Shown here: one piece after another, positions 11,181 through 57,984 of the stretch | Numbering within the stretch: the stretch's first letter is position 1 | Layout of the letters: every line of letters begins with the position of its first letter | IMG/VR virus record: IMGVR_UViG_3300009545_000007 | Coordinates: 1-60,810 of that record | From: a virus | Strand: one strand, 5' to 3' | Length of the DNA: 60,810 nucleotides | Translations under genes and position numbers: made by a program | Notes under the pieces: model-generated | The model's database searches: none | Seen by the model: the letters and a program-made list of their open reading frames with translations, nothing else | Told to the model about the DNA's origin: nothing

Positions 11181-11639
11181 ATGATGAGCAAGGAATTAGA
11201 CGCAAAAATAGAAGCATTGGAAAAAGAAGTAGCGCAATTAAAGCGGATAAAAGAGCTTGAGGGCGAATTGGCAGAACTGAAAAAGGAAACCAAGCAAGAG
11301 GGTTGCCAGTACCATCACCACTTTTACCCCTGGTATCAAGCTTGGTATCCGGTTTACCCGCAGCCTGTACCAACTTGGGAACCCTACAAAGTTACTTGGA
11401 CTAACCAAGGCGGCACTACCACGATTAGAACTGACACCCTAAAGAGCAAAGGACATACCTTAAAACTAGATGAAAACCCTATGGATAATGCGATATATGC
11501 ATCGAATAGTACATCTGGTGTCAGCGTTATAGGGACTAATGTTGGCTTAAGTAACGCTAAAGGGTTATTTGTTAATACCGATGCCGCATCAAGAGGTTTG
11601 GGTGTGTCAGTCAACAAAACATTCGACGGGATTTACTAA
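11181..11639 (+). CDS. Hypothetical tail-associated protein with coiled coil
   Basis: 152 aa. Residues 1-40 are a heptad coiled coil ('LDAKIEALEKEVAQLKRIKEL'), then an aromatic, proline-rich linker ('YHHHFYPWYQAWYPVYPQP') and a Gly/Ser/Asn-rich beta region like fibre proteins. AAAGGAG stands 7 nt before the tandem ATGATG. It follows the tape measure and may be a trimeric tail tip or fibre-attachment component. The His/Tyr/Trp-rich linker is unusual and could bind metal. Confidence 0.45.
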   Translation: MMSKELDAKIEALEKEVAQLKRIKELEGELAELKKETKQEGCQYHHHFYPWYQAWYPVYPQPVPTWEPYKVTWTNQGGTTTIRTDTLKSKGHTLKLDENPMDNAIYASNSTSGVSVIGTNVGLSNAKGLFVNTDAASRGLGVSVNKTFDGIY

Positions 11640-12043
11640 TGTCCATCACACCATCCAGCCTTCAAGCATACTCGATTAGCCGTGACAACGGTTCAACCTG
11701 GCTTAACTTTCCCAAGTTACCGACTAGCCGTGACCCGCAGCCTATGTCGGCTTTTGCGCAACGGGTAAACGCCACTAAACAGGTTGGTATGTTTTGGAAT
11801 CTTGAACTCACTTGGGGGCTAATGACTCCGGCGTGGTACTACCAAACGGATTCAATGTATAGCCCGGCAAATCAAGAGATTTTGCTTAATTACCTGACTG
11901 ACAGCCTCAACTCAGATGGTACGCCAATATGGGTGTATGCGCCTGCGGTTTGGGCTGAACCGCCCCGTTCAAGGCGGCAAGCTTCGCTATTTTATGATGT
12001 TGTGGTGCCTTTTACTTTAGTGGAGTGGTATTTACCAAGCTAA
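11639..12043 (+). CDS. Putative distal tail protein-like
   Basis: 134 aa, start overlapping the previous stop (TAATG). Beta-rich with 'ISRDNGSTWLNFPKLPTSRD', 'WYYQTDSMY' and 'LFYDVVVPFTLVEWYLP'. These resemble small tail tip proteins that sit between the tape measure and the tail hub. No definite family; assigned by order and composition. Confidence 0.4.
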   Translation: MSITPSSLQAYSISRDNGSTWLNFPKLPTSRDPQPMSAFAQRVNATKQVGMFWNLELTWGLMTPAWYYQTDSMYSPANQEILLNYLTDSLNSDGTPIWVYAPAVWAEPPRSRRQASLFYDVVVPFTLVEWYLPS

Positions 12044-29206: not shown

Positions 29207-29563
29207 ATGAACGATGGGACAGAAGAAACAATCGAATATATGACAGAAGAGGAAATCATTACAGAAGGCCGCAAAATAGGTAAGTGGCAAAAAGAACTTT
29301 ACGCCCGTTTTGGAGAGGAATTAAAACCAATCCTTACTAGGATTAGTATTGAGGAGGTTTTAACCGTAAGGCAAGCTTTTTATGAGGTTCTTCAAGAACG
29401 TGACAACCTGAAAGCCGAAAACGCCGCCTTGCGTGAGCGGGTGGCGCGGTTGGAAGTTCGAGAAGCCGAGTTGATAGCACTCCTTGCGAATGATGAGGAA
29501 GCCTATGAAAAAGCCCTAGATGCAAAAAGGGCGCTGGAAGTCAGGGAAAGTGGGGAGGGATGA
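29207..29563 (+). CDS. Hypothetical coiled-coil protein
   Basis: 118 aa, strongly acidic, with a leucine heptad coiled coil at residues 60-115 ('LQERDNLKAENAALRERVARLE'). AAAAGGAGG lies ahead of the ATG. Overlaps the macro-domain gene by 4 nt, so likely co-translated and possibly a partner. Function unknown. Confidence 0.5.
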   Translation: MNDGTEETIEYMTEEEIITEGRKIGKWQKELYARFGEELKPILTRISIEEVLTVRQAFYEVLQERDNLKAENAALRERVARLEVREAELIALLANDEEAYEKALDAKRALEVRESGEG

Positions 29564-30006
29564 TTGAGCTAGTCAAAGGTGATATTTTCAAAAGCGAGTG
29601 CCAGGCGCTTGTTAACCCGGTTAATTGTGATGGTGTCATGGGTGCTGGCCTTGCTTTGAAGTTCAAAAAGAAGTTTCCACATAACTTTTATGATTATGAA
29701 ACTGCTTTGAAAATCGGTGAGTTGAAACCGGGTAAGGTGTTTACCTGCCTATATTACAAACAGGAAATTATCAATTTCCCAACCAAAAACCATTGGCGGG
29801 ATAATTCTACCTATACCCTAATCACAACTGGACTAGATGCGCTGCAAAAAGAAATAAAAGAACGGGGTATTAAGTCGGTAGCGGTCCCTGCCCTCGGTTG
29901 TGGATTAGGCGGGTTAAACTGGAATGATGTTTTACCGCTAATCGAAACTAGGTTAGGCGAGGATAAACTACCGGGTGTATTGGTTAAAGTTTATCCACCA
30001 AAGTAG
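29560..30006 (+). CDS. Macro-domain (ADP-ribose processing) protein, DarG-like
   Basis: 148 aa, the full length of a single macro domain. 'IELVKGDIFKSECQALVNPVNCDGVMGAGLALKF' carries the N..N..GVMG.GLA signature, and 'AVPALGCGLGGLNW' the second ADP-ribose loop. 'KIKEKFP..F.DYE' spacing and the CDGVMG variant are closest to DarG-type domains, which remove ADP-ribose from DNA. DarT/DarG is a known anti-phage toxin-antitoxin system, so this protein may protect phage DNA or reverse host ADP-ribosylation. No DarT toxin lies beside it. Substrate is inference. Confidence 0.75.
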   Translation: MIELVKGDIFKSECQALVNPVNCDGVMGAGLALKFKKKFPHNFYDYETALKIGELKPGKVFTCLYYKQEIINFPTKNHWRDNSTYTLITTGLDALQKEIKERGIKSVAVPALGCGLGGLNWNDVLPLIETRLGEDKLPGVLVKVYPPK

Positions 30007-30048
30007 GGTCCACGCGGTTTATTGATTAGTTTTTGGGAGAGTTTGAGA

Positions 30049-30795
30049 ATGAACAGAATTATTGGTTTAGTAATCTTTTGGGTGTTGGTCGGCGCGATGC
30101 TGATATTTACCGCCGCCCATACTATCAATTTTATCGGGCAGACTTTGCCCGGTGACAACCAGGCTACAGGCTTTTTTGCATTAGCGGCTTTTGATGTTGG
30201 CTTGGTTGGATGGGCCTGGGTGTTTCAACACGTAGCCAGGGGTACGGCACAGCGCGCTATTTCGGCCATTATGGTGGGTTTTTCTTTCCTCGGATTAGCA
30301 GCCGCATTCTTTGCTGATACTTGGATACAAGCCGGTAAGAGCAAAATAGCAGGCAAAGCTAACGAAGATTTTGTAAGCGTTGCTATTTGGGTTACTGCTG
30401 GTATTGTGTTGTTACACGTTTTGGCCGGGGTAATCTTCCACCTGACAGACCCAAAGTTGAAAAAGCAACGGGATGAGGAAGATTTAGAGAGTGCTATTGA
30501 GGAAGAAGCCCGCAAGATGGCTCGTCAAAATGTGAAAGTGTTAGCGGCTCAGCTTGCACCTAGACTTGCAAACCATACCCTTAACCAGATGTCTACTCGC
30601 TATTTATCTGGTGTACAGGAAATGCAAGTGCTGCCACCCGCACCTAGACCAGAGCCTAAAAAGGATTTAGCCCAAACCACACCCCTTTACTTTTCGGCCG
30701 ATGGTGGGGATAATGGAACTGAGCAAGAGGAGGCCGGGCCGGATAATGGGCAATCCCCTTTTCACTCAATAGTGAAGCGGTTGAAGGGCCGGTAA
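30049..30795 (+). CDS. Four-helix membrane protein (frame 0 product)
   Basis: 248 aa from the ATG preceded by GGGAGAG. Four hydrophobic segments lie at about residues 5-27, 38-58, 71-92 and 107-131, followed by a cytoplasmic helical tail with Glu/Lys/Ala clusters and a Pro/Asp/Gly-rich end. It stops at TAA 30793-30795. Shortly before, C CCT TTT at 30756-30762 is a canonical -1 slippery heptamer in the right phase, opening a 58-codon extension. Located next to the macro-domain gene in an early rightward operon. No family recognised. Confidence 0.6.
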   Translation: MNRIIGLVIFWVLVGAMLIFTAAHTINFIGQTLPGDNQATGFFALAAFDVGLVGWAWVFQHVARGTAQRAISAIMVGFSFLGLAAAFFADTWIQAGKSKIAGKANEDFVSVAIWVTAGIVLLHVLAGVIFHLTDPKLKKQRDEEDLESAIEEEARKMARQNVKVLAAQLAPRLANHTLNQMSTRYLSGVQEMQVLPPAPRPEPKKDLAQTTPLYFSADGGDNGTEQEEAGPDNGQSPFHSIVKRLKGR

Positions 30796-30938
30796 CAACC
30801 GTAGCTCTCAAACCTAAAAGGGTAAAAACCCGTACTCGCAAATGTGCTACTCCCGGTTGTGAAATCCGCTTTGTACCTACCCGTTCGGATCACATTTACC
30901 ACGACCGGAACTGCGGTAAAAATATCCGAAAAAAGTAA
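30762..30938 (+). CDS. Probable -1 frameshift extension: zinc-finger tail of the membrane protein
   Basis: 58 codons in the -1 frame from the slip site to TAA 30936-30938. The frame has no ATG, GTG or TTG after its upstream stop at about 30744, so it cannot easily be started on its own. It encodes a Lys/Arg-rich linker and then CATPGC..12..H..HDRNC, a convincing C2H2C/C4-type zinc finger with basic end. Slippage would give a 296-aa fusion of membrane protein and zinc finger. Stem candidates lie downstream (CGGTTG 30778-30783 with CAACCG 30796-30801) and AGGAGG lies 22 nt upstream. Confidence 0.55.
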   Translation, partial: SLNSEAVEGPVTTVALKPKRVKTRTRKCATPGCEIRFVPTRSDHIYHDRNCGKNIRKK

Positions 30939-36343: not shown

Positions 36344-37525
36344 TCAGGAGGCATCTACAGATTGGTTACTGAGAGAATTTTGCCCAATTCTCAAAATTAC
36401 TTTAGCGGCTGCAACATCACGGGGTAGAGAACAACCGCACTCGCAAGAGTGCCAACGTTCACTAAGTTCTTTAGCCTTGATATTGCCGCAATCAGGACAA
36501 GTCTGTGAAGTGCCGTTGGGCCGAACTTTAATCAGCTTACTACCAGTGTATTCTACTTTGTAGGTAAGCATATTGATAAAAGTTGACCAACCAGCATCAA
36601 CAATAGACTTTGAAAGACCGCTTTTAGCGGATGCACCGTTAGGCAAGAATGTTTGAGTAGTTTCGTCAAATTTAGGTTTAGCGCGTTTTGTGAGGTTACT
36701 AACTTGAAGTTTTTCAACCACAATCAAACTATAAATTTTAGCCAGCTTAGTGCTCAGCTTGTGGTGAAAATCCATACGCTGATTTCTAGTTTTGCGGTGT
36801 GCCCTGGTAACTGCTTTTTTAGCTTTGATTTTACGAAGATGGTTTTTATCGGTGTATTTAAGCCAATCAGCATGGCGCTGCACTTTGGCAAGGCTCTTTT
36901 GAGACTTACGGTAATGGCGTGGGTTTTCGGTTTGGTTGCCATCGGAATAACTAGCAAAATACTCCAATCCAACATCTATACCTATTTGTGGCCCCTCGTG
37001 AGTTGCGGGTTGTTCAAAATCATACTCAACACTAAATACAACATGCCAATCAAAGCCAGAACGTTTAATGGAAATGGTTTTTACTTTGCCAATAACTTCA
37101 CGATGTATCCGAACTTTGATAGTGCCAATCTTAAACAGTTTAAGTCTGTTATTAACCAAAGACCAACCACCATCCATAACAAAACTATTATATCTTTTAC
37201 TGTTTTGAAACCGTGGGTATCCTGGTGCCCCACCTCTTTTGCAGCGGGAGTAGAAAGCTTTGAAAGTTTTATCTACACGTTGCAAAACTTCCCTCAAAGT
37301 ATGTGCGAGAATTTCTTTAAGTTCTGGCCTAAACTCTTTTATCTCGGCCATCTGCCTATCCTGATCGTAAAAATTTATACTTTTGCGGCACATTCTCCAT
37401 GCATCCCGGCGTTCTTGAATAGCGGCGTTGTAAAGTTCACGGCAAGAACCAAGAATATGTTCAAACTTCTTTACCTGGGCTTTAGTTGGGTAAAGTTTAA
37501 ATTTATAAGTTTTGTGAGTAATCAC
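36344..37525 (-). CDS. tnpB: TnpB RNA-guided nuclease (IS605 OrfB)
   Basis: 393 aa from a GTG. The OrfB N-terminal domain occupies 1-170; RuvC residues are present: D184 in 'GIDVGLEYF', E271 in 'LIVVEKLQVSNL' and D370 in 'LPRDVAAAKVI'. The zinc site is 'CPDCG' (343-347) plus 'CECGC' (361-365). All catalytic residues are intact, so an active RNA-guided DNA nuclease is likely rather than a TldR-type dead repressor. TnpB proteins use an RNA made from the 3' end of the element. The start overlaps the small upstream gene by 4 nt (GTGA). Confidence 0.88.
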   Translation of the reverse strand: MITHKTYKFKLYPTKAQVKKFEHILGSCRELYNAAIQERRDAWRMCRKSINFYDQDRQMAEIKEFRPELKEILAHTLREVLQRVDKTFKAFYSRCKRGGAPGYPRFQNSKRYNSFVMDGGWSLVNNRLKLFKIGTIKVRIHREVIGKVKTISIKRSGFDWHVVFSVEYDFEQPATHEGPQIGIDVGLEYFASYSDGNQTENPRHYRKSQKSLAKVQRHADWLKYTDKNHLRKIKAKKAVTRAHRKTRNQRMDFHHKLSTKLAKIYSLIVVEKLQVSNLTKRAKPKFDETTQTFLPNGASAKSGLSKSIVDAGWSTFINMLTYKVEYTGSKLIKVRPNGTSQTCPDCGNIKAKELSERWHSCECGCSLPRDVAAAKVILRIGQNSLSNQSVDAS

Positions 37526-55983: not shown

Positions 55984-57984
55984 TTGCCGCAATCTACACC
56001 AGGAAGCCGAATAACCTCACTAAGTGAGTTTGCCACCCGCCTGTCACAAGCGGGTTCTTTGGGTTTCCGCACTGCGGTTGACGTGTTCAATGGCCGTCCT
56101 TTTGGTCCTAACCGCCCCATGCCGCCTAGCGTATCGGTACAAGATGAGACAGGCGGGCCGCGCTCCAACCAGTACCGCACTTCAGCAAACCTTGTCATTC
56201 GCCCCCGGCTTGAGTATCCGGAGCTTACACCGTTTGAGCAAATTCGCAATTTATCCAGGTTGTACGATGTGGCGAGTATTTGCATAGATAAGCAAATCAA
56301 ACAGCTTACTTCTCTCGATTGGAACATTGTAGCGCGTGATAAAAAACAGCAAAAAGCTTTCGAGGAAAGCGGGCTTATCCAGGCTGTAACGGACTGGTGG
56401 AAGTACCCAGACCGTGACAATATGTATACGGATTGGTTAACAATCTTACTTCGCAATGTACAGGAAATAGACGCGCTCACCCTTTACCCGATGCGCAACC
56501 AGCGCGGGCAACTGCGCGGCCTAAAGAATATTGACGGCACTCTTATCAAGCCCCTGATAAATGACTTGGGTGAGGTGCTGGCTTACCAGCAAATTATTCA
56601 CGGTTTACCGGCTGGTAACTATATCAAGTACGGGGTGGACAGCCTTAGTGAAGTGTTGCCAATTGAGTTTCCCGCTTACCACACCAACGACTTTCCGCAA
56701 GAAATGATTTACCGCCCGCGTAACCCCCGTCCTGATTTGCCCTATGGCATAGCTCCGGCTGAGTTTGTGATTATGCGGGTGAATACTGCGCTTAGGAAAC
56801 AAACGTTCGATTTAAGCTATTTCACCGATGGCAATGTGCCGGAAATGTTGATAGCCCCGCCTGACGGCAATATGCAAATAGATCAGGTGGTAGCGTTCGA
56901 GCAGCAATTTAACGAAGTGTTGCAGGGTAACGACGCTATGCGGCGTAAGGCTAAGTTTCTGGCCTGGCCTGCTAACGTCCAACTGTTAAAGCAATTCCAG
57001 TATGACACTGCGCTTGACGAATGGATGATGAAAATCACCTGCGCGGCTTACGGGGTAACGCCTGCGGAAATGGGTTTTACGGATGATGTGAACAAGGCCA
57101 CGGGCGAAAGTCAAGAGGATGTGCAGTATCGGGCAGGTATCAAACCCCTAGCCAAATGGCTAGGCGAACTGTTCAATCGCATCATTCAGGAGCCACGCGG
57201 CATGAATTGCCCCGGCCTTGAGTGGCAATGGCAGTATGCCGAAACCTCCGACCAGCTTAAAACCGCGCAGGAGTTTGCCATCTATCTTGATAGGGGTGTG
57301 GCATCGCCTGACGAAGTTAGAAGCCTGCGGTTTGGCGGCGATCTGGAAGGCTCAAGCCCTGGCGGCGCTGGCCTTGCCCCCACCGCTAACAAAGCGCCTG
57401 CCACCTCAAAGCCAGAGCAACAAGAGCCGCAAACCAATGTGGTTGATATGCTCGAACGCAAGAAGGCCATGAAAGGCACCAGCGAAGTACAGACGGGTGT
57501 GATGATAGCCTTCATGTTGCCGCCCGAAGCTGCGGACCTGTTAGCGTGGAAACGTCCCGATGCTGAAAAGCCAGAAGATTTACATATCACGCTTGCCTAT
57601 CTTGGGGACACTACCAAACTAGAGTACAGCGAAAAAGCGATGCTAGATTGCCTCAGCCGGTTTGTAAGTCAGGTAGCGCCCGTTAGCGGTAATGTAAACG
57701 GTTACGGCCGGTTTGCTGGCGAGCATGGGGTTAGTCCGGTGTATGCCAACTTTGACGCTCCGGGCTTACCTGATTTCCGTCAAAAGCTTGTAACTTATCT
57801 GGCCTATGATGGGATTGAGGTAGTGAGTAATCACGGTTACACGCCTCACATTACTCTAGCCTATATCCCACAAAATGACCCAACCCCCACGCTGAATATA
57901 CCAGACCTCAACATTACGTTTGGTGAGGTGGTTTTGGCCTGGGGAAATAACAGGACCGCTATTCCATTGGTAGCAAGGTGTTAG
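55984..57984 (+). CDS. Portal protein with C-terminal 2H phosphoesterase domain
   Basis: 666 aa from a TTG without a Shine-Dalgarno; no ATG, GTG or TTG lies upstream in frame before the terminator. Residues 60-455 match HK97-type portals ('ASICIDKQIKQLTSLDWNIVA', 'AYGVTPAEMGFTDDVNKATGE', a DEVR.LR region after it). After a ~60-residue linker, residues 510-665 form a 2H phosphoesterase with both catalytic motifs: H534-I-T536 ('HITLAYLGDT') and H622-I-T624 ('HITLAYIP'). That family includes RNA ligase/cyclic phosphodiesterases and the anti-CBASS protein Acb1. The enzyme would be carried in each virion. Confidence 0.8.
   Translation: MPQSTPGSRITSLSEFATRLSQAGSLGFRTAVDVFNGRPFGPNRPMPPSVSVQDETGGPRSNQYRTSANLVIRPRLEYPELTPFEQIRNLSRLYDVASICIDKQIKQLTSLDWNIVARDKKQQKAFEESGLIQAVTDWWKYPDRDNMYTDWLTILLRNVQEIDALTLYPMRNQRGQLRGLKNIDGTLIKPLINDLGEVLAYQQIIHGLPAGNYIKYGVDSLSEVLPIEFPAYHTNDFPQEMIYRPRNPRPDLPYGIAPAEFVIMRVNTALRKQTFDLSYFTDGNVPEMLIAPPDGNMQIDQVVAFEQQFNEVLQGNDAMRRKAKFLAWPANVQLLKQFQYDTALDEWMMKITCAAYGVTPAEMGFTDDVNKATGESQEDVQYRAGIKPLAKWLGELFNRIIQEPRGMNCPGLEWQWQYAETSDQLKTAQEFAIYLDRGVASPDEVRSLRFGGDLEGSSPGGAGLAPTANKAPATSKPEQQEPQTNVVDMLERKKAMKGTSEVQTGVMIAFMLPPEAADLLAWKRPDAEKPEDLHITLAYLGDTTKLEYSEKAMLDCLSRFVSQVAPVSGNVNGYGRFAGEHGVSPVYANFDAPGLPDFRQKLVTYLAYDGIEVVSNHGYTPHITLAYIPQNDPTPTLNIPDLNITFGEVVLAWGNNRTAIPLVARC

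Follow-up and report, generated by a model that had tools for sequence, protein, structure and literature searches.

The window analysed here, the whole 60,810-nucleotide stretch of IMG/VR record IMGVR_UViG_3300009545_000007, carries a phage-like gene set, which includes a terminase, a portal and a weak match to a tail sheath. The C-terminal domain of the portal (gene at 55984-57984, residues 499-663) also matches PHROGs families of RNA ligase and head maturation protease, and is therefore regarded as a shared extra domain attached to the portal. On the minus strand, at 36344-37525, there is an IS605-type TnpB, and almost all its relatives belong to Ktedonobacteria, which suggests Chloroflexota as the host phylum and is the best indication of the host. 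The gene under study is located directly 3' of a macro-domain protein (29560-30006, Pfam 1.8e-19) and encodes a protein with four transmembrane (TM) helices. These helices appear in a low-confidence AlphaFold2 model, the mean pLDDT for the frame-0 protein and three relatives being 47, too poor for a fold search. Searches of Pfam, NCBIfam and PDB gave no convincing relative of the membrane module, and a single family member matches a PHROGs family, phrog_568, described as 'plasmid stability' (E 0.00026). Membership in DUF2637 (PF10935), a family considered as a possible link to Spd-type membrane proteins, was rejected, as no match over the cut-off was obtained and none at the four-TM loci.

A preliminary description of this DNA had proposed that a slippery heptamer within this gene opens a -1 frame encoding a zinc finger, and the layout of the locus bears this out. 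Indeed, the heptamer codons CCT (30757-9) and TTT (30760-2) are in frame with the ATG at 30049, and the X XXY YYZ rule is therefore obeyed in the window. The -1 frame is preceded by a TAA at 30744-30746 and runs, from the slip site, the 58 codons that had been described, ending with the TAA at 30936-30938; no ATG, GTG or TTG is found before the zinc motif, and the end of frame 0 is also where it had been placed. The fusion would comprise 296 residues, 238 of them common with the frame-0 product and 58 new, and the extension reaches 47 codons past the frame-0 stop. As for the finger itself, the cysteine and histidine pattern is present, but the corresponding Pfam match, to the CGNR zinc finger (zf-CGNR, PF11706), scores 16.1 bits (E 0.0099) and does not reach the gathering cut-off of 24, no other match to the window -1 part being obtained in Pfam. 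The likeness to CGNR fingers relates to the spacing and to a CGKN-like end, whereas other members of the family under study have different treble-clef-like fingers. The codon score computed within the window is intermediate for the extension (0.00), with genes at 0.37 and out-of-frame sequence at -0.72, and gives weak support for its coding. An in-frame heptamer followed by a -1 extension of at least 30 codons occurs in 2 of the 120 window ORFs of at least 80 aa, and the other one has its own ATG.

Table 1. Features of the four-TM gene and of its -1 frame in the window.
Feature	Position	Strand	Remark
Start of the mechanically called ORF, TTG, upstream of ATG 30049	30022	+	
GGGAG, 5' of ATG 30049	30035-30039	+	
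Frame-0 gene, four-TM protein, 248 aa	30049-30795	+	ATG start; family by HMM
SD-like AGGAGG, 22 nt 5' of the heptamer	30728-30733	+	stimulatory role doubtful at such distance
-1 open frame	30747-30938	+	no ATG/GTG/TTG ahead of the zinc motif
Slippery heptamer C CCT TTT, frame 0	30756-30762	+	same or equivalent heptamer in relatives
Possible stimulatory stem CGGTTG/CAACCG (30778-30783 with 30796-30801)	30778-30801	+	starts 15 nt past the heptamer
Frame-0 stop TAA	30793-30795	+	overlapping -1 codon 30792-30794 is GTA
Zinc-finger motif C-x4-C-x10-H-x2-H-x3-C, -1 frame	30843-30914	+	CGNR-like

Pattern and tblastn searches with the window protein gave no match in viral contigs, phages, plasmids or genome contigs. 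The family was found inside Chloroflexota genomes, the first match being locus L039 (3.7e-34), and an alignment-based search then gave more members, together with three IMG/VR records. In total, 44 distinct ORFs match the profiles and, with L054 (25 bits) left out, the tree contains 43 four-TM members from Chloroflexota genomes and IMG/VR, separated by deep branches. Identities between the window protein and the other sequences in its alignment are 25-37%. Close relatives of the window phage, in which its own heptamer could be compared, were not found in these searches.

We have analysed in each member the -1 ORF overlapping the frame-0 end, judged blind to slippery motifs, and retained the loci in which a C..C..[CH]..[CH] domain lies in the -1 frame with no ATG, GTG or TTG before it. 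Ten loci qualify, namely the window (L001) and nine relatives (L040, L041, L045, L060, L062, L076, L105, L107 and L110); L113 has the letter pattern, but far upstream within the frame-0 gene, and was left out. In each of the ten, an X XXY YYZ heptamer lies in frame within the overlap (CCCTTTT/A/C/G, TTTTTTC, AAATTTT or CCCAAAC), the overlap being 7-30 codons long with the exception of L045 (94 codons), and the heptamers found in these overlaps total 13 in frame and none in either of the two other phases. Most pairs among the ten share 15-40% identity, the closer ones being L041/L060 (81%), L045/L062 (74%) and L040/L107 (72%). The probability of 10/10 by chance is 2.2e-12 as a product with codons drawn from each gene, and 1.8e-9 with the frame-0 peptide fixed and synonymous codons random, both products being somewhat too small because the three close pairs leave about seven fairly independent cases. 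The identity of the heptamer varies between lineages over a deep tree and is always a legal X XXY YYZ. A motif-by-motif analysis of codon constraint was excluded as a test, as the sites had been chosen for having a heptamer. In the subfamily formed by L084-L090, which does not have such a -1 domain, no overlap heptamer is found except in L086. Judged from substitution rates, the -1 extensions of the relatives are under purifying selection: past the frame-0 stop, the dN/dS of the -1 frame is 0.11 for L041/L060 (43 codons), 0.38 for L040/L107 and 0.17 for L039/L069, and the other two frames of the same DNA have no comparable pattern. Overall, the overlap, the in-frame heptamer and the startless zinc domain of the relatives support the earlier suggestion that a -1 shift yields membrane and membrane-zinc-finger forms, all three being kept in many of them at mostly 15-40% protein identity.

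These comparisons also bear on whether the gene is in truth an ordinary fusion, its frame changed by a recent indel or by an error of sequencing or assembly. The heptamer is within CCCCTTTT, where an indel is conceivable, and a frame-0 fusion, which had been named beforehand as evidence against a frameshift, is in part observed, in L061 and L125 only and with another zinc-type domain (CLxC), the finger of these two loci being in the -1 frame without a fitting heptamer. However, the startless -1 arrangement is found in ten members from separate assemblies, mostly 15-40% identical and three of them on contigs of about 4 Mb (G064, G354 and G159), and the -1 domains are under purifying selection. 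Since the arrangement is common to independent assemblies, among them genomes in one contig of about 4 Mb, it cannot be due to a reading error, which was rejected, and error or indel taken together is a very improbable origin of the frame change.

A distinct scenario is that a small gene of its own encodes the finger and is translated by termination-reinitiation at a GTA codon overlapping the frame-0 stop (GTAA, with GTGA in sister genes), the heptamer being incidental or serving the frame-0 peptide only. This is a real alternative, because 9 of the 10 startless loci have a G before the frame-0 stop, which makes the -1 codon GTA, and because free-standing fingers (e.g. L039) have GTG, within GTGA, where the startless loci have GTA; the window GTA is at this same place. 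Also, a possible start codon is present ahead of the -1 domain in L039, L065, L068 and L069. GTA, though, is not known to be an efficient start codon, and reinitiation predicts no in-frame heptamers, yet ten of ten loci have one and none is out of phase. The heptamer is moreover retained by genes with a possible start: CCCTTTT is kept in L039, L065, L068, L069, L070 and L080, and TTTTTTA in L081. In L039, L065 and L070 the finger is encoded by an additional small ORF that may start at GTG or ATG, so that finger homologues with a putative start of their own, which had been expected to speak against a frameshift, are seen in part; nonetheless CCCTTTT is still present there, upstream of a different -1 domain. 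We thus regard reinitiation as improbable, and programmed -1 frameshifting at C CCT TTT as the favoured reading, to which we assign on computational evidence a probability of roughly 0.88.

According to the frameshift model, ribosomes translating the four-TM gene would meet C CCT TTT and most would stay in frame 0, yielding the 248-residue membrane protein, whose tail (HSIVKRLKGR) is short. A minority would slip back one base, with the Pro and Phe tRNAs re-pairing with CCC and TTT, and in the 296-residue product a flexible linker would join this same membrane module to a cytoplasmic zinc finger, the predicted peptide across the shift in the window being ...DNGQSPFSLNSEAVEGPVTTVALK. The middle loop and the segment following helix 4 have basic residues, which suggests that both ends of the module are cytoplasmic, and the finger would thus face the cytoplasm. 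We infer that the slippage takes place in the native host.

In respect to stimulatory elements, the two structures of the preliminary description, the 6-bp stem and the CACT/AGTG mini-hairpin, do exist, but their placement as stimulators is weak. A stimulatory structure is usually found 5-9 nt downstream of the heptamer, and here the stem starts beyond this range, at 15 nt, and the mini-hairpin touches the heptamer. The 88 nt 3' of the heptamer fold better than shuffles (z -3.15). Upstream, the SD-like AGGAGG at 22 nt is beyond the 6-17 nt range searched in work on E. coli (PMC4066793). Checks for SD-like sequences and for folding found no well-placed stimulator in the window or in most relatives; good hairpins at the heptamer are found only in L079 and L082, being very strong in these (about 6-65 nt behind an in-frame C CCA AAC, z -7.5 and -4.4). 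The basal shift rate may therefore be low, or other host features may matter. Concerning the slipperiness of the motifs themselves, in E. coli C_CC.U_UU.A,.G and.U result in more than 0.10% frameshifting without any stimulator, C_CC.U_UU.C results in high-level shifting, and H_HH.U_UU.Y belongs to the most efficient classes (PMC4066793). These shift-prone classes cover CCCUUUU/A/G/C, UUUUUUC and AAAUUUU, that is, most of the motifs found here. Transcriptional slippage was considered and rejected, as the runs of four C and four T, and the mixed heptamers elsewhere, are too short.

The domains encoded behind the membrane module are diverse, and none of the zinc domains reaches a Pfam cut-off. 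Treble-clef-like fingers are found as -1 domains in L062 (YTWTCQYCGQPFETEFYSQRYC) and L041 (CSVCGSKYPASSRSRYC), a CLxC..C.H domain in L039, L065 and L068-L070, and a basic domain of WRW/SRYIGK type in L079, L080 and L082. Behind membrane modules of different subfamilies, L039 and L065 have nearly identical 3' cassettes, which indicates that cassettes are exchanged. In a further group (L063, L044, L067, L046, L064, L042, L066 and L108) a junction CCT NNN TAA/TAG/TGA GCCGG is conserved and followed by a different -1 domain (LDLDALRQIKWPNAIQVQRRG); within this group C CCT TTG is found only in L064, and A AAC CCT in L042, L066 and L108. L067, among those with CCT NNN TAG/TAA GCCGGACAGCG and a -1 domain but no heptamer, has no start ahead of this domain either. 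L043, L123 and L124 have TTT CGN followed by the zinc finger in the +1 frame; a forward slip of tRNA-Phe to TTC is conceivable at this motif, which may represent a +1 variant of the device. The slip site would connect a conserved membrane module with C-terminal domains that are exchangeable and either of zinc type or otherwise basic. We consider the odds about even that this holds for an entire, hitherto unrecognised recoded gene family of phages and small integrative elements of Chloroflexota, the site being a standing joint for exchangeable domains and the motif being replaced while its function is kept. The motifs would be C CCU UUN, U UUU UUC/A, A AAU UUU and C CCA AAC, and some members, those with TTT CGN (L043, L123 and L124), would perhaps shift by +1.

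The relatives sit on compact integrative elements in Chloroflexota chromosomes, and these have varied replication modules. An AAA_25 helicase and a primase zinc ribbon are encoded at L118, L119 and L114, and a serine recombinase at L118, L119 and L115, the latter having also RepO- and DnaC-like genes; L117 has a Rep_trans initiator and a tyrosine integrase, and L116 a G2P-like Rep gene with a homologue of the L117 integrase. With the four-TM gene in common, L114-L119 appear to form a group of small mobile elements not described so far. The finger may bind nucleic acid, and the fraction of the membrane protein that carries it would then hold DNA (or RNA) of the element or phage at the membrane; this is a tentative proposal, on which we would place somewhat under a one-in-three chance. 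It is also quite conceivable, if short of an even chance, that the frameshift is real but that tethering of nucleic acid is not the role of the fusion; the zinc domain would then bind proteins or confer stability within an envelope function, e.g. superinfection exclusion. The small SH3_3-domain protein with a lipoprotein-like N-terminus encoded directly before the four-TM gene in L115 and L118 fits such an envelope role, as does the diversity of the zinc domains, none of them above a Pfam cut-off. On the other hand, the -1 domains are short, basic and mostly of zinc type, and the other genes of the elements are for replication and recombination.

Known -1 frameshifts in bacteria and phages are mainly those of tail chaperones and IS transposases, together with those of a few housekeeping genes. 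The tail assembly chaperones, such as lambda G/GT (Xu et al. 2004, as cited in PMC3711429 and PMC10885494), likewise involve a phage gene with an in-frame X XXY YYZ near its 3' end and a minority product with a C-terminal extension. Here, however, the gene is not a tail gene and encodes a membrane protein extended by a zinc finger, and the four-TM relatives are mainly on small integrative elements, with no tail genes in the stretches examined. Also comparable are the IS1- and IS3-family transposases (PMC4066793), in which a gene pair of a mobile element is fused via a conserved heptamer and a nucleic-acid-binding property is joined with another domain; most of their heptamers are A_AAA_AAG or A_AAA_AAA, whereas C_CCU_UUN prevails here, and the first product here is instead a four-TM membrane protein of unknown family. 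The analogy with SpdB2 of Streptomyces (pSVH1), the closest parallel in function and an integral membrane protein of a small mobile element that oligomerises and binds DNA non-specifically, according to the part of PMC4170104 devoted to it, is architectural and concerns the proposed function only, that of a putative tether. No sequence homology to SpdB2 was found, DUF2637 being the only related Pfam family tried, and in that part of PMC4170104 frameshifting is not mentioned for SpdB2.

Our literature searches gave no report of frameshifting in Chloroflexota and none of a phage frameshift by which a membrane protein gains a zinc finger. Also, no such family is mentioned in the portions considered of a survey of prokaryotic frame transitions (PMC3711429), a general review (PMC5009743) and a study on frameshift prediction (PMC10885494). 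Joining a zinc finger to a membrane protein thus looks like a previously undescribed use of frameshifting. If true, this would be a new use of recoding in phages and in several kinds of small mobile elements within one phylum, and a synonymous change of one heptamer would give a direct handle on the role of the membrane protein for a mobile element. Automatic gene calling will probably overlook these -1 domains or cut them short: in L115, simple ORF calling places the start of the finger inside the motif, at MPFDTEIY. Elsewhere in the window, the gene pair at 11181-11639 and 11639-12043 has an in-frame TTTGGGT at 11597 followed by an ATGA overlap, which looks like ordinary translational coupling.
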